DNA of 64,000 bases from Gracilariopsis chorda (taxonomy: Eukaryota > Rhodophyta > Florideophyceae > Gracilariales > Gracilariaceae). The position numbers were made by a program, and so were the translations under genes. The notes under the pieces were generated by a model. The model saw only the letters and a program-made list of their open reading frames with translations. It was not told where the DNA came from and ran no database searches. Positions within the stretch are counted from its first letter, which is position 1. Each line of letters opens with the position of its first letter. Shown one piece after another: positions 46,641 through 63,711 of this stretch. Location of the stretch: NCBI GenBank assembly GCA_003194525.1, contig NBIV01000085.1:124001-188000 (forward strand), in the 5' to 3' direction.

Positions 46641-47219
46641 TTTGGCAGGTATGATGCACTTTGAAGCGGTGAGGAGAGGAGAAGCTGAGGGAACAAGGAG
46701 AGCGCGAGTACTATGCAAAGGAGATGTGAGTGAAGAAAGGTGGCGGGTGAAATTTTTGGTGCTCGCGATTGGTGCGGGAGATGGACGGGGCCACGTGTGG
46801 GGGCGCGAGAGGGAGAACGCATGCAGGACGCCTGCCGCGTATCACAACGCGTCGACCCGATTCGACGCGCATGCTGCAAACAGCGCTTGCGTAGACAGCT
46901 CGTGATGAAAAAACCGTTTTGCGCGCGTTTTGCGCCCCCCTTTTCAAAAAAAACTCAGCAACCGCCAGCGTGTACCACACGTCCTCGCCTCCACTGCACC
47001 CCCCCCCCTCCGCCTCCGCCTCCGCCTCCGCCTCCGCCTCCGCCTCCCTGCCTCCGCGCACTTCAAACGCAACAAACCCCTCACACTTACCTCAACCCCT
47101 CTTCCGCACATCCCACGCCACCACCACCACCCCCCCCCCCCCCATCAACACCGCCCCATTCCCCTCCTCCCCGTTCTGCCAATCCTCTTCTCGCGGCGTT
47201 TGGCCGCCTGCTTCGTAAT
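46641..47219. promoter_or_regulatory. Divergent promoter region with C tracts and a CCTCCG repeat
   Basis: 579 bp between divergent start codons of the DUF1995 gene and the WD40-bromodomain gene. It contains a C10 run (46999-47008), a (CCTCCG)n run to about 47046, and a C14 run (47130-47143) 77 bp before the plus-strand ATG. Open frames through it are Pro-rich products of these repeats. Confidence 0.5.
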
Positions 47220-50200
47220 ATGCAGTCTCCCTCATGCCTTCCCCATGAGGATGAACTGCTCTTCCTGGTCCTGCACCATCTTCACAACTACGATAATCAC
47301 CCCGAAATCGCAGCAGCGCTCTGCAATTTGGAGCATTCCCTCACCTCACTGCATAAGTTACCTTCCGTTCCCGACGCTCTTGGACATCTCGTTCCCCTCA
47401 CTTACGACCAATGCGCCGCCCGTTATCACCATATCCCACGCTCCTATCTCAGGGACCTTGTCACCACTCGTCTCCCACGCACCCCACATCCGCACCCCCC
47501 TGCCACCCTGTTTTCCACAAGTCGTTTTGCTGCTTCTCTTCGAAAACGTTCACGTTCCCACAGAACCCCCCCACGCAGACTACCGCACCGTTCCTCCTCT
47601 ACCAACGTTCTTGAAGCGCTCAATTGCGCAACCAGCTTATCCACACATCCAACTTTACAACCACTCACTCTCACCATTCTTCCAAAGGCTTATCGCCCGC
47701 TGAAACGACTCATCGGTCATCACTTACCCGTCTTCACAACCCTTTTCGACCACACTGCTCGTTTTATCGTAACCGGTAGTGACGATAATCTCATCAAAAT
47801 ATGGTCCGCTCAAACCGCCTATTTGCAGCACACCCTCCGCGGTCACGACAGCAATCTCGTCGAACTCGTCATGCATCCAACGAAGCCCTACGTCATATCC
47901 GCCAGTAGTGACACCACTCTACGCGTCTGGGATCTCAACACTGGTGCTGCTCTGCACGTTTTGGATGGCGGTTCAAAAGAGGTCAATGCCGTTCAATGCA
48001 GTCCATGTCCAGATCGCCCTTACCTTGTTGCCGGCGGTGCAGACGGATCCGTCCGTCTGTGGGACGCCGATCATTTTGAGGCTGGTTTCATTCGCATTCC
48101 CATACCCACGCGCGCTTCATCCCGTTCTGCCGCTCATATCCCAGAAAATGCTCGTGGTGCTGCTACATCAGCAGCTGCACCGCCTTCCCCGCTGCCAGCT
48201 TCCGCACAGCACCCCATGGCAGATATTTCCGCTGCTACTCTTTCTGCACTCGTTGCGTCTACTCCAGCCCCCCTTACGCCATTAGCCTCTGCTGTGGCTG
48301 ACGAGGCGTTACGAACTGCACCCGAACCCTCTCGCAACGGTGCTGCACATAGTATGGTCAGTAGCAGTCCCATGTATGAGGTTCTTAGCGTATGTCTTAA
48401 TGCGGGCGCAACGCGCCTGGCTGTCAGCGGTACTGATTGCGTTGCTCATGTGTACGCTATTGACAAACCGGAATCTGACGAATCTCCGCTGCCACGCGTC
48501 CGTCTGCTCACCTCGTTACGCGGCCATTCTGAATTCATCAGTCAAGTGCTCTTCTCGCGGAACGGAAGCACCATTGTCACCGCTTGTCGTGATGGTACGG
48601 CAAGAATCTGGAATCGCACAACGGCAAAGTTGCCCTCAGCTCGCGGTCGAGCAGCTTCAGTTGAAGGGATGGGTGTTTGGAGCTACAAGGTATTGGACTG
48701 TCGCTCTCAAATACAGGCCGATGCGCCTAGTATGCTCAGTGGAGGTGCATCGGGATCGGCATGTGGCAGCATTGTCCCGCGTATGCGCCGCGCCATCTTC
48801 CCGGTATCCGTTTGTGCTGTTCTCTGGTCACTTGACGACCGCTATGTGTTCACTGCTACTACTGATGCCAAGATTCGCGTTTGGCACGCTGATACTGGTA
48901 AGCTTGCACGAGTGCTTCATGCACATGAGGGAGACATTTACGTGTTGGATTGTCATCCGCTGAATGAACGTATTTTGCTCTCTGGCGGATATGACGGTCG
49001 TGTGATACTGTGGGATATCGAGACTGGTGCCCAACTGCGCTCCTTTTCCATTGCTGAGCAAAGCTTTCAAGAGGGGTCCCACATGCAGCCAATGCCTGTG
49101 AAGGGATCAAGCATTATAGACGGTCAGTTTTCCAGCGACGGTCTCAGTTTTGTAGTTTCGGACACTTCTGGTGCTACCACGCTGTTTGGAATCGACTCTG
49201 GAGAGGCTACAGCACTTGCTCCAGAGGAGCAGTTCTTTTCTAATGACTGCGCCCCTTTCAGAAGGGATGAACAACAAAGGGCTGTTCATGAGAGCACCGG
49301 CGTTTTGCTACATCTTGTTCCTAAAGGGAGGCTCTGTGACAAAGAACTTAGACCACATCCCCCAGAACTACAGCCCAATGCACCACAGCCACTCGTACCC
49401 GCGAATCAGGGCCTCGGAAAAACTCAGCAGCCATCAATGACTTTCAAGTCAGTTGAGTATGCTCGTGATCCTAACTGTGAGGCACTGTTGAAACGTGCGC
49501 AAGAGTTTCGAGAAAACCAAGAGAAGGAAGAACGCCGACTTTTAAGAGATGCGAGAAATGCGAGGCGGCGTATGATCATGGAACGTGAGCGGGTGGCACT
49601 AGAAAAAGAGGACTGTCTTTTGTACCTTACAGGTGATTTTGAAGTCCCGGACTCGGAGTTTGATGATTCAGACGAAGATTTTGATGGTGACGCGTTAACG
49701 TCGGATGACTCGGACTCTAGTTCTTCATACGATGATGATGATGAGGATAATGACGACGGGGATGATAGCGATGAGATACGACCCGCCCCCTCAAAAAGCA
49801 AGAAACCCGAAGGCAAGACCGTTGGAAACGTATTGGACGAGCCATCTCAAACAAGACCAAGACGCGAGTTACGCAAACGACGTCGATTTCAACGGAGTGC
49901 AAAGAACTTCGCCGACTCGGGTGATAGTGATGAGCTTCGTAGAGAGGAAAGTCCTGGGTATGAAATTCGAACAAATGAAAGCGATAGCGATCACTCCGAA
50001 GGCCATAACGAACGAAGAGCCAAAGGGACTGACGAACAAATTTCTAAACCCGACAGAACGTCAGCGCAAGAGGTGCCTACTCGAATGCGCGAGCTGGAGG
50101 AGGACAAGAATGCGCCTTCCAATCATGATTCCAATTCCCTCAGAGCTGTCATTGGCCCCAGCAGTCAAGATATGCGTGATGCCCCGAGACTTGGTGGGGC

Positions 50201-53200
50201 TGCAAGTCAAGGGAAACGGCGAATGAGGATTTGCAGTGGGAATAGCGCATCGCAAATCGCGGCTACTGACCCCCCCGTTCATCCGAGAAAACCCCATGTT
50301 GTTGCGGCTGCCGACTCACATCCTGGTACCATCGACGCGGTACGGAGTCACGTGAGAGGGGCGCAAAGTATTGGTTCATGTTATGGGCGTGTTAACCTTA
50401 CCGAGGCCGGGGGTAACATCGTTTCTCAAGCACCGTTGAATCCTTCCTTTACGAGCGAGAGGATTGAGGTGAGGAGACCTACTGAGGGCACGTTCAAGCC
50501 CATGGAAGATCATGAAGGCGATAGCGCAAGCTGCTTTCGCCCACACCCGGTGTTACCGGATGTGGATGCTCGAAGCCGGACATCCCCTCGGGAGCAAATG
50601 CATAATCAATCTTATATCGAAAGATCTCCTGGAAGTGATGTCAAAGTCGACCCTTTGTTTGGGGTGAACAGACCAGCACCGACCTCGACGAAGGGTGACG
50701 GGCCGGAGAGGAGTTCTCTATCAGACTCTCCAGCCCGTATCGCCAGGTGTCGGTGGCGTGCCAGAACCAGAAACGGTGTGAAGAAGGAGCAAACCAATGA
50801 TAAGCTTTTTCATATTATCGACATAGACGAAGTTGCGGAAAAAGAGCTTCAAATATTGGAGGCTCAGCGAAACAAACGCTCTCGTCGTAAGAGGCGGCGG
50901 CGAAACTCCGCGGAAGGTGATGAAGAAAACTCGAGTAGTGAACCTGATAAGCGCTTGAAAAGGAGCGACCCTCGACGAACGTCAGTTCTGCGCATGCGTC
51001 CTACTCGACGGAACTCTAAGAGTGAAGATGTGTTATTATCCAGAGAACGTGCTGCTGGTGCTTCTATCAACGATGTCCAGGGCTTAGAGGCTTCGACGTG
51101 GCTACGGTCAACATCAACTCCGTATACGTACGTTCCTCAAGTTGGAGATGACGTAACGTACTTTCCCGGTGGACATGTGACCGCGATGGAAGTCTCACGA
51201 TCCTCCGGCCTAGACCCTTTGCTAGACAAGTCAAACTATAAGAGGAACGGGCTTGAGGTGCTCGATGGCACTTCATTTAACAAAGACCAGTCGCCTCTTC
51301 GATTTCAAGTCGTTGAACTGCATTACGATTTTCCTTCGCTTCTCTCATCCAAAGGCAGAAACTTGGGTTCGAAAAAGAACGGAAAGAGACCCTTGGATGA
51401 GATGAAAGTGAAACCTAAGACGAAGGTGATTCTCACGCTTAGCTTACTGAGTAATATTCGACGCCGCTCTGGGCAGTCTAATGCATTTGTGCTTTCTTAT
51501 TTTCCCGTTGATGTTCCTGAATATCTGGTGCTTACAAGCCGAGTTGACGCAGCATTGCATCGCACTTGGAAGCCCTTCGATCCGTTTCGCATCTTGTTCC
51601 TCAATGAGAAAAGAGCCTGGCAGTACTATACTGGACGCGTCCGCGCTGTGAAACCCACAGTTCGCACAACCATGTGGAATTCTATCGAGGTTGAGTACGA
51701 CAATGAAAGCGGACGCGACAAAGAAAACGTAGACCTCGTATCACCGTGGGAACTGGAACCTCTAGATTTTCTTGAAGGTCCAAAGAGTACCCATTCTCAT
51801 CATGGGGGCACCTTGAAGGCGTCTACTGTTGAACCCGGTCTGTTTCCGAGCATTGCAAGAGAACTAGAAGCGATGAAACAAGTGGAATCAAACTGGAGGA
51901 CTCAGCTGCTGTGGCTTGAAACGGCTAACTCTCTAGCCTCTGTACCTGGTTATTGCGCCACTATTCCATGTCCCATGGATCTCAACACTGTCCTTGTTCG
52001 CCTTTGCACTGGGTACTACAGACACTACAATGCATTCCTCTACGATGTTTACTTGCTGAAGAACAACGCGATACGCTATCATGGACCAAAGTCTGAGGCT
52101 GGTAGACTTGCAGAAACTGCAATCTCAAGAGTCATGGAAGTGGCAGAACGAGTTCGAGCCCAATACTCTCTGGCGTGGATACCAATGTATCAAAGCAATC
52201 TATCACCACCATCAGGAGCGAATATTGGGGGGCAATCAGCTTGCCGCCTTATTCGACCGCGCCCTGCAAATATGGAAGTGTCTGGAGTACAACCCACTCC
52301 CCCGACCCACTCCTCCACCCAACCAATGGCCCGCCATTTGCCGATGCCGATCACTTCTAGAGAATCCATGACCGGCATTGCTATGGCGACTCATCTGCAT
52401 ACAGACAGTGCAAACCCTCTAGTAATGCCTGCTCATAGTTATCGGGCGTGGAACACGATGCGGTTTGGCGCTTCTCAGGTACAACCCCTCTATCACCACG
52501 GCCATCCTTTGTCGGGTGTAGGCCTTCCACCGGCTGTGCCTGGGGCTTCCGTAAATGCCGGGTCAGTTCGAAGCACTGGGAGAGGCCCCAAATCAGGCAC
52601 CCGTGGTCAGCCTTCGAGACAAGGGACTGCAAACGGCCGAAGAACTAATGGCAATTTTCATGGAGGCGGGCAAGGATCTTGTGCTAGCGTCATCGCGACC
52701 GCGGGGACACTGCATGGAAACCCAGGAAACTCTTACGTAGGGGCAGTATTTGCAACTCCTCAAGTAAGCCCAAGGCTACAACCAGGATCACAAAGGGTAA
52801 CAAACTCAACTCAAACTAACATCGCTCCGCGCCAGCACATGCGTTTAAATGTGCCCAATGGACCCTTGCCGAGCTCAGCAATGGCACGACCTGGATCTAC
52901 TCCGCCAATACGTACTCCGCCAGCACTAGACAGCATGCTGGAAACAGCATCGAAAGGCATTGCAACCGGGAACATGGCGTCATCACTGCCTGATCACATA
53001 ACACATCACGTCGGAGGAGGTGGAACGTCTCACACGAACTTACGCTCCCCATTGGGCCTACAATCTCGTCCTGCCAGAGCTGGTAGCACAGCCGGTGAGG
53101 GCGGTACCAACAGCTGGGCACGAAGCATGGAAGGAGCGGGAGGTATGTTCCACCTTCAAGCGTCGACTTCAGACAGTCACTTGCCTGTACCAACTCACGG

Positions 53201-53444
53201 TAGGTCTCAAAGCCCGTTATCGCCGACTCCTGTCAGAGCAGACGCGTCGCATAGAACACGAGGGCAACATGCTCCATTCAGTTCAGCAAACACAGGAGTA
53301 CGGTACCAGGAGTGTTCTACACTTTCAGTGCCAGCAGAAGAATCGACCATGAGCTGCGGCGGGGCAGAAGTAGCACGACATGCCGCAACGGCTGAATCCG
53401 TTGAAGTTAATCCAATTAGTCATCCGAGACGAACAAATTCCTAA
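47220..53444 (+). CDS. BRWD/PHIP-like WD40-bromodomain protein
   Basis: 2,074 residues, single exon of 6.2 kb from ATG 47220 ('MQSPSCLPHEDELLF'). Order: LisH-like helical start; WD40 propeller at about 160-660 ('RLIGHHLPVFTTLFDHT', 'IVTGSDDNLIKIWS', 'RGHDSNLVELVMHP', 'GGADGSVRLWD', 'RGHSEFISQVLFSRNG', 'HEGDIYVLDCHP', 'SGGYDGRVILWD'); a charged helix and acidic Asp/Ser run near 800-850; a long disordered middle; a cryptic Tudor-like part near 1455-1520 ('PWELEPLDFLE'); one bromodomain near 1540-1650; and a Gly/Ser/Pro-rich tail. Relatives serve as CRL4 ubiquitin-ligase receptors that read histone tails. In the bromodomain the usual acetyl-lysine-binding Asn is His1621 ('IRYHGPKSE'). Animal BRWDs have two bromodomains; plant relatives have one, as here. 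Confidence 0.85.
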   Translation: MQSPSCLPHEDELLFLVLHHLHNYDNHPEIAAALCNLEHSLTSLHKLPSVPDALGHLVPLTYDQCAARYHHIPRSYLRDLVTTRLPRTPHPHPPATLFSTSRFAASLRKRSRSHRTPPRRLPHRSSSTNVLEALNCATSLSTHPTLQPLTLTILPKAYRPLKRLIGHHLPVFTTLFDHTARFIVTGSDDNLIKIWSAQTAYLQHTLRGHDSNLVELVMHPTKPYVISASSDTTLRVWDLNTGAALHVLDGGSKEVNAVQCSPCPDRPYLVAGGADGSVRLWDADHFEAGFIRIPIPTRASSRSAAHIPENARGAATSAAAPPSPLPASAQHPMADISAATLSALVASTPAPLTPLASAVADEALRTAPEPSRNGAAHSMVSSSPMYEVLSVCLNAGATRLAVSGTDCVAHVYAIDKPESDESPLPRVRLLTSLRGHSEFISQVLFSRNGSTIVTACRDGTARIWNRTTAKLPSARGRAASVEGMGVWSYKVLDCRSQIQADAPSMLSGGASGSACGSIVPRMRRAIFPVSVCAVLWSLDDRYVFTATTDAKIRVWHADTGKLARVLHAHEGDIYVLDCHPLNERILLSGGYDGRVILWDIETGAQLRSFSIAEQSFQEGSHMQPMPVKGSSIIDGQFSSDGLSFVVSDTSGATTLFGIDSGEATALAPEEQFFSNDCAPFRRDEQQRAVHESTGVLLHLVPKGRLCDKELRPHPPELQPNAPQPLVPANQGLGKTQQPSMTFKSVEYARDPNCEALLKRAQEFRENQEKEERRLLRDARNARRRMIMERERVALEKEDCLLYLTGDFEVPDSEFDDSDEDFDGDALTSDDSDSSSSYDDDDEDNDDGDDSDEIRPAPSKSKKPEGKTVGNVLDEPSQTRPRRELRKRRRFQRSAKNFADSGDSDELRREESPGYEIRTNESDSDHSEGHNERRAKGTDEQISKPDRTSAQEVPTRMRELEEDKNAPSNHDSNSLRAVIGPSSQDMRDAPRLGGAASQGKRRMRICSGNSASQIAATDPPVHPRKPHVVAAADSHPGTIDAVRSHVRGAQSIGSCYGRVNLTEAGGNIVSQAPLNPSFTSERIEVRRPTEGTFKPMEDHEGDSASCFRPHPVLPDVDARSRTSPREQMHNQSYIERSPGSDVKVDPLFGVNRPAPTSTKGDGPERSSLSDSPARIARCRWRARTRNGVKKEQTNDKLFHIIDIDEVAEKELQILEAQRNKRSRRKRRRRNSAEGDEENSSSEPDKRLKRSDPRRTSVLRMRPTRRNSKSEDVLLSRERAAGASINDVQGLEASTWLRSTSTPYTYVPQVGDDVTYFPGGHVTAMEVSRSSGLDPLLDKSNYKRNGLEVLDGTSFNKDQSPLRFQVVELHYDFPSLLSSKGRNLGSKKNGKRPLDEMKVKPKTKVILTLSLLSNIRRRSGQSNAFVLSYFPVDVPEYLVLTSRVDAALHRTWKPFDPFRILFLNEKRAWQYYTGRVRAVKPTVRTTMWNSIEVEYDNESGRDKENVDLVSPWELEPLDFLEGPKSTHSHHGGTLKASTVEPGLFPSIARELEAMKQVESNWRTQLLWLETANSLASVPGYCATIPCPMDLNTVLVRLCTGYYRHYNAFLYDVYLLKNNAIRYHGPKSEAGRLAETAISRVMEVAERVRAQYSLAWIPMYQSNLSPPSGANIGGQSACRLIRPRPANMEVSGVQPTPPTHSSTQPMARHLPMPITSRESMTGIAMATHLHTDSANPLVMPAHSYRAWNTMRFGASQVQPLYHHGHPLSGVGLPPAVPGASVNAGSVRSTGRGPKSGTRGQPSRQGTANGRRTNGNFHGGGQGSCASVIATAGTLHGNPGNSYVGAVFATPQVSPRLQPGSQRVTNSTQTNIAPRQHMRLNVPNGPLPSSAMARPGSTPPIRTPPALDSMLETASKGIATGNMASSLPDHITHHVGGGGTSHTNLRSPLGLQSRPARAGSTAGEGGTNSWARSMEGAGGMFHLQASTSDSHLPVPTHGRSQSPLSPTPVRADASHRTRGQHAPFSSANTGVRYQECSTLSVPAEESTMSCGGAEVARHAATAESVEVNPISHPRRTNS

Positions 53445-56608: not shown

Positions 56609-56613
56609 CGAGT
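56609..56613. repeat. Target site duplication, left copy (CGAGT)
   Basis: CGAGT precedes the 5' LTR and is repeated exactly after the 3' LTR at 63707-63711, the 5-bp duplication expected of Ty3/gypsy integration. Confidence 0.9.
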
Positions 56614-56782
56614 TGTAGAGCCTGTTCACGTGGTCGGACTTGGCTGGCGCGTATGGCACGCCAGCCTTTATGAAGACGTCTGATTGGCCCTCCAGCGATC
56701 TCGCTGGAGGGCCAGAGTCAATAAAAGCCAGCCCCTCCCCCCTTCCCATCCGAAGGGGGAGGCAAGCCGTTTGTTGCTTTCA
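56614..56782 (+). repeat. 5' LTR (169 bp)
   Basis: Starts TGTAGAG and ends GCTTTCA. It contains AATAAA at 56720-56725 and three hairpin-forming inverted repeats: 56642-56666 (8-bp stem), 56686-56713 (13-bp perfect stem, 2-nt loop) and 56734-56762 (C/G-rich stem with one bulge). Confidence 0.92.
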
Positions 56783-56800
56783 TGGTACTCTCGAGGAGGG
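56783..56800 (+). other. Primer binding site
   Basis: TGG follows the LTR end directly (TGGTACTCTCGAGG...), as expected for pairing with the CCA end of a tRNA primer; the first five bases match the usual initiator-Met type, the rest does not clearly, so the tRNA is not named. Confidence 0.55.
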
Positions 56801-56814
56801 ACCGTTTCAGAACG

Positions 56815-57336
56815 ATGTCGTTGTCCTCAGCAATTGTGTTCAATGGTGAACCTGACTCGGATGTAGTCAAGTTCTTCTTTTTCTTTGACAATGTTGTCGC
56901 AAAAGGTACTAATGATTCGTAAAAAGCAACGCAACTCTTGCCGTGTTTGACAGGAAAGGCGTTTGAATTCTATTACGAAACCTACGCGTACGAAGGACAG
57001 TTAATTGAAGAAGCATATGACTACGCTGCTGTGAAGCAAGCTATGATCGAAGAATTTTCTGAAGTGATTAGTCAGGAAGAGTATATAAGAAGAGCCATGA
57101 ACTGCAAGCTCCGTCCGTTGGACATGGCTAATTCTCTGACAGATATGGATGGCGCTTTTAAGAAAGCTAACTTCAACAATGAAGCTAAGTTTGGATTGCT
57201 GAGAAATGCAGTCATGGAACATATGGACCTGGCTCAATACGTGTTGTTAAGAGGTGCAAGCGACTACGAATCGCTCAAGCGTACCATTCGGGACTATGTT
57301 CGTTGCCGAGAAACTTTCAGTGAAGCCTACATTTGA
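56815..57336 (+). pseudogene. gag of the LTR element, two in-frame stops
   Basis: From ATG 56815 ('MSLSSAIVFNGEPDSDVVKF') the frame runs to TAA at 56920-56922, then continues 'KATQLLPCLTGKAFEFYYETY' to TGA at 57334-57336 and on into pol in the same frame. The 'ATQLLPCLTGKA..FY' segment is the Ty3/gypsy capsid pattern (retrotrans_gag). The TAA disables gag in this copy. The TGA at the gag-pol border could be a decayed codon or a read-through site. The zinc knuckles lie after it, in the pol frame. Confidence 0.75.
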
Positions 57337-60300
57337 AAAGGGAAAGGAGGAGAAGGTAAGCGACCTCACACTTTGAGGATTCTCCGTCGCCCCGAACAAA
57401 CGGTGGAGTCATTGGAGAACAAGGTAGATGATCTCACCTCTCAGATAGCGGAACTCACCCTCTTGGTTAAGAAGAAACAAACTTCGACCGAGGAGAACAA
57501 TGTTCGTGTCTGTTCATTCTGCCACAAGCCAGGACATGGAGCGAACCGCTGTGACAAGAATCCCCACCGGAATACCAGATGCCCACGGTGTGGGAAGATG
57601 GGACACTCAGAAACTACGTGTTGGTCAGAGCCCCAGATGCTACAGCTCGCCGTCGCTGCCAATGAAACACGTATGAAAACAGAAGGAGACACACTGAAAG
57701 ACTCAGGAAAGGATAAAGAGTACACAGTGGGAATAGTGACTGAAGAAGTCGAAGCAGAAGAGACTTTCAATGCTACGAAGAGAGATCCTGAGGGCAGGGC
57801 GCTGCCGAAACAGCCAAAGACAGGAAGATTGGCTGTGAGAGAGTTACTCAACCCTCAGCCGGGTCCACTCATTGACCTTACGAAGGGCCTACCAAGTCGG
57901 AAGAAGGCCAAGCCTAAATCCCGCAAGCCGGCCCGGAAGAAGGCCCAGAAGGCCCGAAAAGATGGAATTTCAGACTTCGTAGGACGGTACAATGTTCTCA
58001 TTGAGTTGGCAAATGCTTCATGTGGGCTCACGTTTGGCCAGCTGCTCCGTGGAGATGCCGAAGAAGCAAAAAGACAGATTCAAAAACTGTTTGTGAAGAA
58101 TGGTAGAAGTCAAAAGGTTGCTATCGCGCATAGGCCTGGAAGTATCAGAAGACTAAAAGTGGTGAAGTTGAAGCTATTCGGAACTAGAGTTAACGCATTG
58201 CTGGACTCAGGAGCGGTTCCAAACCTTCTCTCCACTTCTCTGATGGAAGAACTTACGCTCTCACCGGAAGCGACGACGAGGAAGATTAAAGTCGCTGATG
58301 GGAGCTCTAGTGTAGTACGAGGTGTCGTCAGAGACGTACCTGTGCTGTTTGGTGAGTCCAAGACCCTTTTAAACTTTTTAGTTGTTGATGACCCACCAGT
58401 GGATGTGATTATCGGTTCCCCAACCTTAGAGAATATTCAGGCCTGCATCGACATGGGAAATCATACAGTGACTGTGACTATAGAAGAGAAAGAATCCGTA
58501 TTAGATCTAGAGTATGATGAACGTATCCCCGATATGGAAGGTTCCGAGACCGATAGTGAGGATTTCACCTCAGACTCAGAGATATACCCAGCGTCTTCCA
58601 GTTCGGAAATTGATGACGATAAAGAGCTTGTCGTGGCTCTTGCGAAGGAGATCGAATCTCACCCAATAACGAATTCTGAGAGCGATCGGGAAGAAACCAT
58701 CCCCCTGCTCTTAGAAGAAGATGAAGATAGTGATATTGAAGAAGGGGAGCTACATGTGCTGAACCTGACCGAAGAGGAAGAAGACCTAAAATCGGTATTG
58801 CTCGCGACAAAGGTCAAGCATCTCTCGGAGCGCGCACAGAGGCAGCTCTCTACGACCCTTATAGACTCAAAGGCCGTTGCTTGGTCCCTGGAGGACCTCA
58901 GACCTGCTGATGTCCCTGTGAAGCATTCTTTTGAGCTAAAGGATCCAGGACCTTTAACTTTTCGGGCAAGACGTCTCCCACCGCGACATAATGACTTGGT
59001 AAAGAATGAGATTGACAAAATGCTTCGTACAGGAATCATTGCGCCAGCAAACTCTGCCTGGTCTTTCCCTATTGTAATCGCGACAAAGAAAGATGGAAGC
59101 CCGAGATTTTTCGTGGACTACCGTGCATTGAATGCCAAAATGAAGTCCGATCGTTGGCCATTACCTCGCATAGAAGAAGTGTTCGATGATCTTCGTGGAT
59201 CCCCACTATTCACAACTCTAGACTTGTTTTCAGGGTATTGGCAGGTGAAGATGGCCGAGGAGTGCAAAGAGATGACGACTTTCATCTGCAGATTCGGTAC
59301 ATTTAAATTTGAAGTCATGCCATTCGGATTGATGAATGCACCTGCAACATTTCAAAGAATGATGAACGCCGTACTGAAAGACTTATCTTTCGTTCGTGTC
59401 TACTTGGATGACGTTGTCATTTACTCCAACAATATAGAAGATCATCTTATGCATTGCAAAAGAGTTATTGGCAGAATTGCCTCACATGGACTGAAGATTA
59501 AACTGGCTAAGTGTAGTTTTGGGCAGCCTCAGGTGAAGCTCTTAGGACATATCATCGATAAGACGGGAGTTGCGACGGACCCAGAAAAGATCAAAGCTAT
59601 ACAGGAAGCTCCATGTCCAACCTCCGCGACGGAACTAAGAAGTTTCTTAGGACTGGCCAGTTATTATCGACGGTTCATACCCAGGTTCGCTGAAGCATCT
59701 GCTGCCTTGCATGAAGCCATGTCACCTAAGAAAACATGGCTCTGGACACCAGAAATGGAAGATGCTTTCCTAAGTCTCAAAGCAAAGTTAATGAAACCCC
59801 CCGTTCTAGGATTTCCTGACTTTAATGAACCCTTCATAGTTGAAACTGATGCATCCAGTGTTTCCCTAGGGGCATTACTTTCTCAGAAGAAGGAGGGCAA
59901 ACTACATCCTATACAGTTTGCCAGTCGTACGATGACAGCTGCCGAGAGACGTTATTCAGCCTGCGAACGCGAGGCATTAGCGGTCATTTTTGCGTTGAAG
60001 AAGTTTCGTGTTTACTTGCTATCCTCCCTACCATTTACACTCATTACTGATCATCAGGCCTTGCAGTATGCATTTAGAAAACCAGATATCCATGGGAGAC
60101 TGGCAAGATGGATTGATTTTCTTTCGGAATATGAATTTGAGATAAAGTACAGGCCAGGAGCAAGTAACCGTGTTGCAGACTACTTGTCGCGTATTGAAGT
60201 ATCTGGGGAAGAGGAGACCAATGCAGTAGTACTAGCAGTTTCCTCGGAAAGACCGATATTCGAAGACTTAGAGCAATTCCTTGTTGATACAGGGAACTAC

Positions 60301-61473
60301 ATCTTGGGATTGACATTGGAGACTAAGGATCCCCTTGAGCGTCGCAAGATTAAGAGGAACGCAAAGAATTATATGGTGTGGAATGAAAGACTCTTCCATA
60401 GAACTAAGAAAGGACGTCTAGTAATACCAGAAGTAAGGAACCGACTACAGATCTTAAGAAGTTTTCATGATGATATTGGACACTGGGACGTTAATAGTAC
60501 CAAGCAATTTGTGCTTGAACGTTACTGGTGGCCAGAGGTATACAAGCATGTTACGGAGTATGTAAGCAGTTGTAGTGGATGCCAGTCAGCAAAGAATATT
60601 CCGACGTATCGAACTACGCTCCGATACCCCTTGACGGGCCTATTTCATACGTTTTCTATCAATTTTGCAGGACCTCTACCCACGACAGTTCGGAAGAATA
60701 GATTCATGTTGGTAGGAGTAGAGCATGTAACAGGTTGGCCGATTGCGAAAGCTACACCGACATCAACCGCCAAGGAAGTGATTGAATTTCTAAAAGATGA
60801 AATCGTGACCCCATTCGGCCCGCCTTGCACCGTGGTCTCTGATAATGCTACTAGTTTTACTGCAAAAACTCTGTCAGAATTCAACAACCACCATGGCATC
60901 ACCTGGAAAACGGTGATGGCATATGCACCAATGTCGAACGGCAGAGCTGAACGGATGATTGGCATTCTAAAGAAGTCCATGACGAAGAGCATCTTAGAAT
61001 ACCAAGAGCCTTGGGACGAAGTTCTACAGAAGGTACTGTATGGATATAGGCGCCTTCATCTAAGAAATGGGCCTTCTCCATTTGAATTGCTGTATGGTGT
61101 TCCCCCACGCATGTCGCAAGATGACCCATCCGCTCTCGTCCTAAGCGGGGGCGACTTACATCGTGGGGTGGAATTAGAGTCTGCCTTGCGTCACAGAGCC
61201 ACGCGAGCCCTGAAGCACGCAAACTCCCAGCAAGGTGCTAAGGATAAAGTCTTTCATGTAGGAAACGAAGTCCTAGTAGCTCGAGGAGCAAGTATGAACA
61301 AGGCCAAGAAATGGCCCCCATTTACATCCAAGTTCTATGGTCCTTGTACGATCATTAGAGCTAAGCATCCTGCTTATACTCTAAGTTCAAGGCATGGAAA
61401 GATAAGCAGGAGTCTTATCCACGCTCGACGCCTGGTCCCATATCTAAGAAGACCAACAATTCTAGAGAATTGA
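57337..61473 (+). CDS. pol polyprotein of the LTR element (NC-PR-RT-RH-INT)
   Basis: A 1,378-codon frame, continuous with gag apart from the TGA. In order: CCHC knuckles 'CSFCHKPGHGANRC' (about 57509) and 'CPRCGKMGHSETTC'; protease 'NALLDSGAVPNLLS' (about 58192); RT with 'VDYRALN', 'MPFGLMNAPATFQ' and 'YLDDVVIYS' (about 59400); RNase H 'ETDASSVSLGALLS' and 'ACEREALAVIFAL'; integrase zinc finger with 'HDDIGHW', 'CSGCQ'; core 'VVSDNATSF' and 'APMSNGRAERM'; GPY/F 'KFYGPCTIIRAKHPAYTL'. The first core acid, normally Asp in 'DFAGPLP', is Asn here ('INFAGPLP', about 60658). There is no chromodomain after GPY/F. An acidic spacer follows the protease. No ATG begins the frame, which fits fusion to gag. 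Confidence 0.92.
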   Translation, partial: KGKGGEGKRPHTLRILRRPEQTVESLENKVDDLTSQIAELTLLVKKKQTSTEENNVRVCSFCHKPGHGANRCDKNPHRNTRCPRCGKMGHSETTCWSEPQMLQLAVAANETRMKTEGDTLKDSGKDKEYTVGIVTEEVEAEETFNATKRDPEGRALPKQPKTGRLAVRELLNPQPGPLIDLTKGLPSRKKAKPKSRKPARKKAQKARKDGISDFVGRYNVLIELANASCGLTFGQLLRGDAEEAKRQIQKLFVKNGRSQKVAIAHRPGSIRRLKVVKLKLFGTRVNALLDSGAVPNLLSTSLMEELTLSPEATTRKIKVADGSSSVVRGVVRDVPVLFGESKTLLNFLVVDDPPVDVIIGSPTLENIQACIDMGNHTVTVTIEEKESVLDLEYDERIPDMEGSETDSEDFTSDSEIYPASSSSEIDDDKELVVALAKEIESHPITNSESDREETIPLLLEEDEDSDIEEGELHVLNLTEEEEDLKSVLLATKVKHLSERAQRQLSTTLIDSKAVAWSLEDLRPADVPVKHSFELKDPGPLTFRARRLPPRHNDLVKNEIDKMLRTGIIAPANSAWSFPIVIATKKDGSPRFFVDYRALNAKMKSDRWPLPRIEEVFDDLRGSPLFTTLDLFSGYWQVKMAEECKEMTTFICRFGTFKFEVMPFGLMNAPATFQRMMNAVLKDLSFVRVYLDDVVIYSNNIEDHLMHCKRVIGRIASHGLKIKLAKCSFGQPQVKLLGHIIDKTGVATDPEKIKAIQEAPCPTSATELRSFLGLASYYRRFIPRFAEASAALHEAMSPKKTWLWTPEMEDAFLSLKAKLMKPPVLGFPDFNEPFIVETDASSVSLGALLSQKKEGKLHPIQFASRTMTAAERRYSACEREALAVIFALKKFRVYLLSSLPFTLITDHQALQYAFRKPDIHGRLARWIDFLSEYEFEIKYRPGASNRVADYLSRIEVSGEEETNAVVLAVSSERPIFEDLEQFLVDTGNYILGLTLETKDPLERRKIKRNAKNYMVWNERLFHRTKKGRLVIPEVRNRLQILRSFHDDIGHWDVNSTKQFVLERYWWPEVYKHVTEYVSSCSGCQSAKNIPTYRTTLRYPLTGLFHTFSINFAGPLPTTVRKNRFMLVGVEHVTGWPIAKATPTSTAKEVIEFLKDEIVTPFGPPCTVVSDNATSFTAKTLSEFNNHHGITWKTVMAYAPMSNGRAERMIGILKKSMTKSILEYQEPWDEVLQKVLYGYRRLHLRNGPSPFELLYGVPPRMSQDDPSALVLSGGDLHRGVELESALRHRATRALKHANSQQGAKDKVFHVGNEVLVARGASMNKAKKWPPFTSKFYGPCTIIRAKHPAYTLSSRHGKISRSLIHARRLVPYLRRPTILEN

Positions 61474-61625
61474 AAGGAAGATGAATACGCATGAGTAATT
61501 GGCTAAACAAATATAGTGTAAAACATTGATATATGGTCGTAGGAAAGCAGATGCACGTATGCAATTTGTGGGCAGTTTATTGAATCTATGCATAGGGGTT
61601 GAAAGACTAGCCCTTAATGAAGAAC

Positions 61626-62870
61626 CTAATCGAGGACTTTAACTTCCTCCTCGCGATGTGACGCATGCCTACGGCGACGCTTAGTGTGGTTATCATTGTG
61701 ATGACGTGGACGTTTAGAAGAACCATGGGGAGTCAAGACTAGTTGCCGGATTTCGGTAACTTCAAGGAACTCAGAACCACTACCAACACATCTCTGCAGT
61801 GAATGTGGGCAAAGTACAAATCTGTATGGCTCCATACAATCAAGTATATGACCATGATCAGTATCGATTGCCAAAGTGTGGTAGACACCCCCAGTTCCAT
61901 GCAGGGTAAGAAGATAGACACCAGCAGGAAGATAAACAACATCTGTGAGACGAATCGAGTGACCATGTCCATGAACCCTTTGAAGGTTTGCATCACGCTG
62001 AGAAAGGTGTTTTTGTAAATCACGGAGGTCTCGAATCCGAGGCGCGAGGATACCAAACTGCTCAAAAGCATTCTGATAACCTCGGAACCTTTCCCAGTAA
62101 TCATGACAGACAGAAGCGTGGAGGGCATGCAACCCATTGCATAACGCTGCGGGGAGACATAAACCAGTCTCTTCCCGGAAGCGAATGGGCTGCACGTGAG
62201 ATAGCTCGTAATCCCTAAGGCTGGGATTGGGCTCTCGAGAACGGCCAGTAGAAATTCTTAAATAACGTCCTGGGTTCTTGAAGCACCACTCGTCCACCTC
62301 GGAAATTGCCATGATTCGATTATCCGTGCCAAACCTAAAGTTTCCAGATTCGGTCACGGAATGAAACATCGATGCGTTGGAAGGAGTACCGAATATGCGA
62401 AGGGTATACAGATCAATGGCGTGTTCGCGCTGAGTAGCTTCGTCCACACCATAGTAGTATCCATGTTTGAATACTATTTTCTCAATTACCCAAGAGTACC
62501 CCTTAAGTGTGCTATAGTCGACGTTGTCCCTCACGGAAAGCGTCAGCCCTAAACGGTAGATATCATTGAAAGAGAGCTCCTCCCATGGGGAGTCTTCAAG
62601 GAACATAAGAATATGCGGACCTAGAAGTTGCCAGAACTCTTCTCTCGTGAACTGACTTTCGTCGCCGTTGGAGCAACGTATGACAAATTGACGTAGCCCT
62701 ACCCGGCCGTCCAGAATCTTCACCTTCTCCACATCACCACGTCGAGAAAACCTCAAGAGAAGATTATCTCTAGGGTTAAATGGAATAGCTTTTATGCTTT
62801 TCGTTCCAATGTGATAATATGGAGGGGCTTCGCATACCGTCTTCTTAGCGGTGGGCTTTGTACGAGCCAT
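61626..62870 (-). CDS. Antisense accessory protein: H3-tail-like N-terminus, cysteine-protease-like domain, basic tail
   Basis: 414 residues from ATG 62870, antisense to the element, 152 bp beyond pol. After Met, residues read ARTKPTAKKT; histone H3 begins ARTKQTARKS, so seven of ten positions are identical (including the H3 Lys4 and Lys9 equivalents) and two are conservative. The middle (about 40-225) has repeated beta-rich segments such as 'VEKVKILDGRVGLRQFVIRC' and 'WVIEKIVFKHGYYYG' of unknown fold. Residues 225-380 look like a papain-fold protease: Gln227, Cys238 in 'TGLCLPAALCNGL', His331 in 'GGVYHTLAID', Asp344 in 'HILDC'. The tail 'KRPRHHNDNHTKRRRRH' suits nuclear import. The frame is intact although gag is not. 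No family is known to me; function is inference. Confidence 0.8.
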   Translation of the reverse strand: MARTKPTAKKTVCEAPPYYHIGTKSIKAIPFNPRDNLLLRFSRRGDVEKVKILDGRVGLRQFVIRCSNGDESQFTREEFWQLLGPHILMFLEDSPWEELSFNDIYRLGLTLSVRDNVDYSTLKGYSWVIEKIVFKHGYYYGVDEATQREHAIDLYTLRIFGTPSNASMFHSVTESGNFRFGTDNRIMAISEVDEWCFKNPGRYLRISTGRSREPNPSLRDYELSHVQPIRFREETGLCLPAALCNGLHALHASVCHDYWERFRGYQNAFEQFGILAPRIRDLRDLQKHLSQRDANLQRVHGHGHSIRLTDVVYLPAGVYLLTLHGTGGVYHTLAIDTDHGHILDCMEPYRFVLCPHSLQRCVGSGSEFLEVTEIRQLVLTPHGSSKRPRHHNDNHTKRRRRHASHREEEVKVLD

Positions 62871-63133
62871 TTTGGTTCCCTTGGTTACTTTAATACTCCA
62901 AGTCAGCTTGTATTAAGAGTATAGTAGGGGACTTAAACCCCACTTTAGTACGTCTCAATTAATGCAAACGTGTCTTACAGTAACCGTACAGTAACCTTTA
63001 TTAAGCAGGATAAGTAACCGCTAGACGAAGTAACCGTTTCTGAAGCCTTGTTCAAGAAGATGTGTACGCTAACCCCAAAGCTATGCCGAAAGGTGGTGGC
63101 GTAGAGCGCAGGGTGGAAACAGGAGTGGCGCAA

Positions 63134-63260
63134 AGCGCAGAGCGCAGAGTGCAGAGCGCAAGGCAGTGCGGGGCGAAGCGCAGAGCGCAGAGCGTAGAGC
63201 GCAAGGCAGTGCGGGGCGGAGCGCAGAGCGCAGAGCACAGAGCGCAAGGCAGGGCGTGGT
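63134..63260. repeat. 43-bp tandem repeat, three copies
   Basis: Units start at 63134, 63177 and 63220, each beginning agcgcagagcgcagag and carrying 'gcgcaaggcagtgcgggg' with few changes; the third is slightly shortened at its end. Confidence 0.85.
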
Positions 63261-63278
63261 GGAGCAGGCACAGCAAAA

Positions 63279-63436
63279 ATGGCGCGTCGAGGCGTGGCGG
63301 AGCAGGCAGTGCAGGGCGTGGTGGAGCATGCAGAGCGAAGATGGCGCGTCGGGGCGCAGCGAAGCAGGCAGTGCGAAGATGGCGCGTCGGGGCGCGGCGA
63401 AGCAGGCAGTGAAAAGATGGCGCGTTGGGGCGAGGC
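63279..63436. repeat. 38-bp tandem repeat, three copies plus a distant one
   Basis: The segment atggcgcgtcgg recurs at 63279, 63341, 63379 and 63417. The last three are 38 bp apart and share 'gcgaagcaggcagtg'. The first is 62 bp away. Confidence 0.8.
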
Positions 63437-63536
63437 GAGGACGTAAAATGATGTCGGAATGAGGGGAGAGAAGAGGAAAGCAAGAGAAAAAAGTACGCTG
63501 ATCTAGCCGCCCGTGGCGGCGGCTTGGGAGGTGGAC

Positions 63537-63706
63537 TGTAGAGGCTGTCCACGTGGACGGACTTGGCTGGCGCGTATGGCACGCCAGCCTTTATGAAGAC
63601 GTCTGATTGGCCCTCCAGCGATCTCGCTGGAGGGCCAGAGTCAATAAAAGCCAGCCCCTCCCCCCTTCCCATCCGAAGGGGGAGGCAAGCCGCTTTGTTG
63701 CTTTCA
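63537..63706 (+). repeat. 3' LTR (170 bp)
   Basis: Matches the 5' LTR except for three base changes near its left end and one extra C near its right end. It carries the same hairpins and an AATAAA at 63643-63648. Confidence 0.92.
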
Positions 63707-63711
63707 CGAGT
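63707..63711. repeat. Target site duplication, right copy (CGAGT)
   Basis: Identical to 56609-56613. Confidence 0.9.

Follow-up and report, generated by a model that had tools for sequence, protein, structure and literature searches.

An antisense gene in a Ty3-type retrotransposon

The window, 64,000 nt of contig NBIV01000085.1 from the red alga Gracilariopsis chorda (assembly GCA_003194525.1, positions 124,001 to 188,000), contains at 56609-63711 a single long terminal repeat (LTR) retrotransposon of Ty3 type, whose two LTRs differ by three substitutions and one indel (Table 1). Zinc knuckles were seen by eye near the start of its pol open reading frame (ORF). Our subject is the gene lying antisense to pol in this element, which encodes a protein with an N-terminus resembling the tail of histone H3. 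An earlier note on this DNA had described it as an intact gene of 414 codons between pol and the 3' LTR, and place, strand and length are as described; the ORF begins with the earliest start codon in its frame. The same note's statement that the integrase lacks a chromodomain also holds: the 1366-residue pol product has no Chromo match in Pfam (E ≤ 10), by which the element does not count as a chromovirus.

Table 1. The retrotransposon and its antisense gene, in window coordinates
Feature	Position	Strand	Remarks
Target-site duplication, left	56609..56613		CGAGT
5' LTR	56614..56782	+	169 nt, TG...CA
pol ORF	57373..61473	+	aspartic protease, reverse transcriptase, RNase H, integrase by Pfam
Antisense gene	61626..62870	-	414 codons; between pol and 3' LTR
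Basic, nuclear-localisation-like tail, predicted	61665..61715	-	codons 386-402; Lys/Arg-rich, from sequence
Papain/C39-like peptidase domain, predicted	61716..62273	-	codons 200-385; model confidence (pLDDT) low for window protein, 76 for relative P0002
Asp344 codon	61839..61841	-	
His331 codon	61878..61880	-	
Cys238 codon, candidate nucleophile	62157..62159	-	
H3-tail-like segment	62787..62867	-	codons 2-28 = H3 residues 1-27, ungapped
Conserved noncoding block, candidate promoter or 5' leader	62907..62967	-	upstream of antisense ATG
3' LTR	63537..63706	+	170 nt, TG...CA
Target-site duplication, right	63707..63711		CGAGT

Likeness to the histone H3 tail

Dozens of copies of the antisense gene are present in the host genome, and they fall into two anciently split subfamilies, A (the window type) and B. 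After Met, subfamily A starts with ARTKPTAKKT, where H3 has ARTKQTARKS; seven of ten residues are identical and two changes conservative (R8K and S10T), in the same register, as had been pointed out before, while Q5P is not conservative. The majority start of subfamily B is ARTHTTTERTLGGEIPEKRIATKAAKK, which matches H3 ungapped up to K27; the majority residues over ten B N-termini are ARTHTTTERTLGGEIPEKRIATKAAKKG. B equals H3 at ART, T6, G12-G13, P16, K18, A21 to A25 (ATKAA) and K27, and its ten copies are identical to H3 at 11-14 of the 29 positions from Met to 28. The majority residue is that of H3 at 10 of positions 1-28 in A and at 14 in B, and at 17 of 27 in at least one subfamily, a total that a common ancestor with a tail closer to H3 would give. 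Common to both subfamilies are the H3-identical A1, R2, T3, T6, P16, T22 and K23 and the H3-conservative T10, I20 and K26.

The expectation that sister elements would keep the ARTK start is borne out within A, where 20 of 25 N-termini have it exactly, but not in B, which has H at position 4 in all ten copies, though it is the more H3-like overall. Position 9 is R in eight of the ten B copies. Since K4 and K9 are thus not shared by A and B, the proposed reading of H3K4 or H3K9, and with it a bait for readers of their methylated forms, was rejected as the common function. Nor is the suggested recruitment of HP1 supported, the HP1-type ARKS context being replaced by AKKT in A and TERT in B.

Significance was estimated by shuffling residue order, with BLOSUM62 score or identity count as the statistic and a floor of 1e-6 on p. 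Over residues 1-28 each of three A copies tested gave p ~2e-6 by score and 4e-5 to 1.2e-4 by identities. The likeness runs past the ten residues considered in the earlier note: in the eight B copies tested residues 11-28 add support, their p ranging by score from the 1e-6 floor up to 1.6e-5 and by identities from 8e-6 to 6e-4; in three A copies the same residues gave p 0.003-0.006 by score and 0.06-0.15 by identities. The first 59 residues of host H3 were also searched against all six frames of the genome (E ≤ 10; own-genome searches covered 91.3 Mb in 1081 contigs), yielding seven matches: four in three H3-type loci, three in B copies (E 0.065, 0.18 and 2.0), and nothing else. Against PDB sequences, the profile of the whole family matched H3 in 10 of 10 cases (best E 1.2), the N-terminal profile of B had H3 first (best E 0.0037; the best 60 of 120 matches all H3), and so did that of A (best E 0.05; the best 60 of 85 all H3). 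In these alignments N-terminus lies on N-terminus, with register 1:1 for A and B. A control profile of the adjacent middle region gave three PDB matches (E 1.2-1.6), none a histone.

That the likeness is due to chance, or to convergence of short basic sequences, is strongly disfavoured. Subfamily A alone is weak beyond residue 10, but two diverged subfamilies align with H3 without gaps and in one register, the positions at which they agree with it differing in part, and the profile searches put H3 first. Judged by these comparisons, the N-terminal likeness to the H3 tail is beyond chance, and in that sense the protein is a candidate histone mimic; only the tail resembles H3, and no histone fold domain was matched in Pfam (E ≤ 10).

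The gene family and selection upon it

The window protein found 106 matching pieces in its own genome (101 of 182 candidates scored). Identity to it is 75-100% in subfamily A and 47-59% in B, with two worse B copies at 39%; L045 and L046 are intermediate (56-65%), with A-like starts. Seven full-length open copies are among those fetched (the window gene, L003, L005, L006, L007, L009 and L013). More distant antisense ORFs, L031-L035, are ~25% identical to the window protein and 99-100% identical to each other, so must have spread recently. In the three that are listed (L031, L034 and L035) the ORF is downstream of a copia-type pol, with RVT_2 in L031. Together with L053-L062 they are tail-less antisense relatives, in several subfamilies; the L031 protein found 109 pieces, down to ~30% identity (103 of 207 candidates scored). 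One gene family therefore occupies the same antisense place in Ty3-type and copia-type elements, the latter context being that listed for L031, L034 and L035.

The 414-residue window protein had no match in Pfam or among PDB sequences (both E ≤ 10), nor among 5.8 billion proteins (E ≤ 1). In the last collection, at the same threshold, the protein labelled A1 had one match, by eye identical to the L046 piece, and that labelled A4 had five, one being by eye the L037 copy at its start and four being short copia-type pieces; none of these was tied to another species.

Three similar copies, L012, L014 and L016, lie at ~6.7 kb spacing in G000:C43:284245-301931 with one TAG each, and a fourth partial match lies beside them at C43:305916. 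This has the appearance of tandemly arrayed elements.

Changes were counted on a tree of 22 A copies, from which L022 (part of L050) and the tandem duplicates L014 and L016 were dropped and the second copy in L026 was left out, as it was, for missing data, from the 25-row count below; the p-values treat changes as independent. On internal branches the whole gene has 126 synonymous and 79 non-synonymous changes and no stop (omega 0.19, p 4e-32), and on terminal branches 237 and 597, with 27 stops (omega 0.75). The tail, codons 1-29, has 12 synonymous and 7 non-synonymous changes on internal branches (omega 0.18, p 2.5e-4), divided into 5 and 1 in codons 1-11 and 7 and 6 in codons 12-29 (omega 0.25, p 0.015 for the latter), and is neutral on terminal branches (omega 1.00). 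A 25-row count that includes L022, L014 and L016 put the internal omega of the gene at 0.29 and that of the tail at 0.43 (p 0.024), with three internal stops. Thus the dN/dS check that had been suggested comes out well below 1 on internal branches, and both gene and tail are under purifying selection in active A lineages.

Peptidase-like domain

The C-terminal half is probably a papain-like cysteine peptidase. In the model of the relative P0002 its fold is C39/papain-like, and the proposed triad of Cys238, His331 and Asp344, all present in the window protein, follows clan CA order at the expected secondary structure. With C39 and papain-like (clan CA) peptidases it shares predicted fold and Cys-His-Asp order; it differs in having no sequence-family match (none of 29 family members matched the Pfam peptidase C39 model, E ≤ 10), in having no fused ABC transporter, the whole ORF lacking a Pfam match, and in its Cys surroundings, L-C-L-x-A-x-L-x-N-G in most rows of the alignment. 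The C-terminus beyond it is Lys/Arg-rich, as had been said. The middle region has no recognised relatives, and by eye the relative's model shows three strands and then helices there; a chromo-like middle domain was rejected, the profile of this region having found nothing relevant and Pfam nothing (E ≤ 10).

Such a peptidase might itself cut host H3 near residues 20-24, its own H3-like N-terminus being a propeptide or a self-cleavage site with that sequence. The second patch shared by A and B is near the known H3 clipping region (PMC12269491), which makes this a serious rival to the bait proposed below. Conservation of A1-R2-T3 in the sequences, however, would not be explained by a site at 21. 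The nearest fold, moreover, is C39, whose known members cleave after a double glycine, and we consider clipping unlikely.

Upstream block and cassette exchange

The 61-nt block upstream of the antisense ATG is 78-85% identical between five A and eight B copies (the A copy L010 carries a deletion here and is excluded), and identity is 28-46% at 157-257 nt upstream. The block is conserved despite near saturation of coding synonymous sites between A and B (proportion of synonymous differences, pS, 0.78). Four comparisons of the upstream region with those of two host H3 genes showed no clear likeness (best p 0.047, others 0.56-0.74), and capture of an H3 promoter along with the tail was rejected. 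G-rich tandem repeats at spacings of 38-62 nt lie at 63099-63443, in the interval that separates the conserved block from the 3' LTR.

The pol pS is 0.131 between L024, a B copy, and L010, an A copy, compared with 0.309 between the A copies L001 and L010, yet the antisense genes of L024 and L010 have a pS of 0.79. Along the locus these two are 0.86-0.96 identical in pol, 0.42-0.71 in the antisense gene and 0.89 in the LTR, whereas the A copies L010 and L018 are 0.81-0.96 identical through both genes and differ more in their LTRs. Five of ten B copies (L024, L025, L028, L029 and L047) have a pol pS to L001 of 0.25-0.31, like old A copies, and the other five 0.42-0.48. Because closely related pol backbones bear either an A or a B cassette, the simplest reading of these sequences is that the antisense cassette has been exchanged between related backbones.

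Host chromatin context

Genome matches over the cut-off numbered 7 for PHD, 4 for SWIRM, 85 for SET and 150 scored for chromo; some chromo matches are in long open frames and may be other retrotransposons. About 65-70 of the SET matches are weak and of near-equal length (~470-495 nt), many of them broken by stops (e.g. G000:C53:91784-92272), and look like a repeat family bearing a SET domain. No C5 DNA methylase match was found in the genome, where the control matched in 10 of 14 cases and introns could hide exons; SRA gave no match either, but its control was silent too, so this is no proof of absence. The host may be without cytosine methylation, and a decoy for UHRF1/DNMT1 was rejected on these results. 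Adjoining the element in the window, a long + strand ORF at 46740-53444 has by eye WD40 repeats and a bromodomain-like C-terminus, an architecture resembling the BRWD/PHIP type.

A possible role for the tail

A selected antisense accessory gene with an H3-tail-like N-terminus and a probable papain-like peptidase, carried as an exchanged cassette, is a well-supported joint description, and it suggests that the element manipulates host chromatin. Our preferred reading, to which we give a probability of about 0.4, is a nuclear protease baited by its H3-like tail, aimed at the machinery that binds or modifies the H3 tail and acting against silencing. The gene would have its own promoter, in the conserved block. 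Methionine aminopeptidase generally removes Met before Ala, and the start Met would be lost as in H3, exposing Ala1-Arg2-Thr3. Once in the nucleus, the protein would present its tail as bait to the host's binders and modifiers of the H3 N-terminus. Its peptidase (or deubiquitinase) domain would cut or de-conjugate the proteins so baited or chromatin proteins nearby, and the element would be shielded from histone-based silencing. A role in an arms race fits with the exchange of two ancient cassette versions between related backbones.

Two observations temper the evidence from selection. A and B have diverged more in the tail than in the rest (proportion of non-synonymous differences, pN, 0.47 versus 0.31), and H3-identical positions are kept at 0.93 versus 0.85 for the others in A and at 0.79 versus 0.79 in B; these data show that the tail is constrained, but not that the constraint is on H3 identity itself. 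The former also favours a passenger tail, in which a 5' portion captured from an H3 gene contributes no more than a start codon, basic leader or nuclear signal and H3 machinery is uninvolved. The copia-type relatives are tail-less, the H3 residues summed over A and B exceed those of either subfamily as a decaying H3 tail predicts, and four A copies agree with host H3 gene L051 in 6-7 of 9-11 codons, where 3.6-3.9 are expected (p 0.02-0.12). Such codon memory is absent from four B copies (p 0.30-0.92) and from comparisons with the second H3 gene (p ≥ 0.55), so that a single host H3 gene as ancestor, for which codon identity is weak evidence in A and none in B, was rejected; the low internal-branch omega of the tail, with 1 non-synonymous to 5 synonymous changes in codons 1-11, and the upstream region's lack of clear likeness to H3 genes also speak against a passenger. 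We hold it to be an unlikely account, if a little less so than clipping.

Integration targeting in trans, the tail tethering the pre-integration complex to H3 readers, would suit a pol without a chromodomain match and a protein with a basic tail. We think it improbable, for no integrase-binding part was identified in the protein, K4 and K9 are not shared, and the peptidase-like domain would be left unexplained.

If the baited protease is real, the bait could reveal the histone machinery of transposon silencing in a genome with no cytosine methylase match found (controls 10 of 14). The antisense gene, whose product combines a start like the H3 tail with a probable cysteine protease, offers a concrete and testable handle.

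Comparison with known systems

The antisense additional ORFs called aORF-3R, which lie between pol and the 3' LTR, include maize Grande GENE23, rice RIRE2, Silene Retand, PvRetro13 and fungal Boty (PMC7264820). The present gene agrees with them in several features, lying antisense between pol and the 3' LTR in the window and its copies, being kept in many copies and being under selection; it is also like them in a candidate promoter of its own and a likely nuclear protein. In the descriptions of PMC7264820, as far as available, none has a histone tail or papain-like domain, a distinction drawn from descriptions and not sequences. Captured ORFs of bdelloid retroelements likewise show one accessory gene family across unlike retroelement types, but there the captured gene is an ORF3, for example env-like, GDSL lipase or DEDDy exonuclease, and a term search of the available text of PMC5408684 found neither 'histone' nor 'peptidase'. 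Cathepsin L-type clipping also brings together a papain-like protease and the H3 tail; there the enzyme is the host's, H3 is the substrate and no H3-like leader is mentioned in the accessible part of PMC12269491. No comparable H3-tailed retrotransposon protease was found in the open-licence PMC literature, to the extent of its available text.

H3 N-terminal mimicry was reportedly described by Chen et al. 2021. Viral H3 mimics, such as influenza NS1 with ARSK and SARS-CoV-2 ORF8 with ARKS, are similar in being H3-tail-like sequences in parasite-encoded proteins, but those named in PMC10208167 are four-residue motifs, whereas the likeness here extends ungapped over ~27 residues at the true N-terminus of a retrotransposon-borne protein that also has a peptidase-like domain. 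If our reading is true, histone-mimic effectors are encoded by transposons and not by viruses alone.
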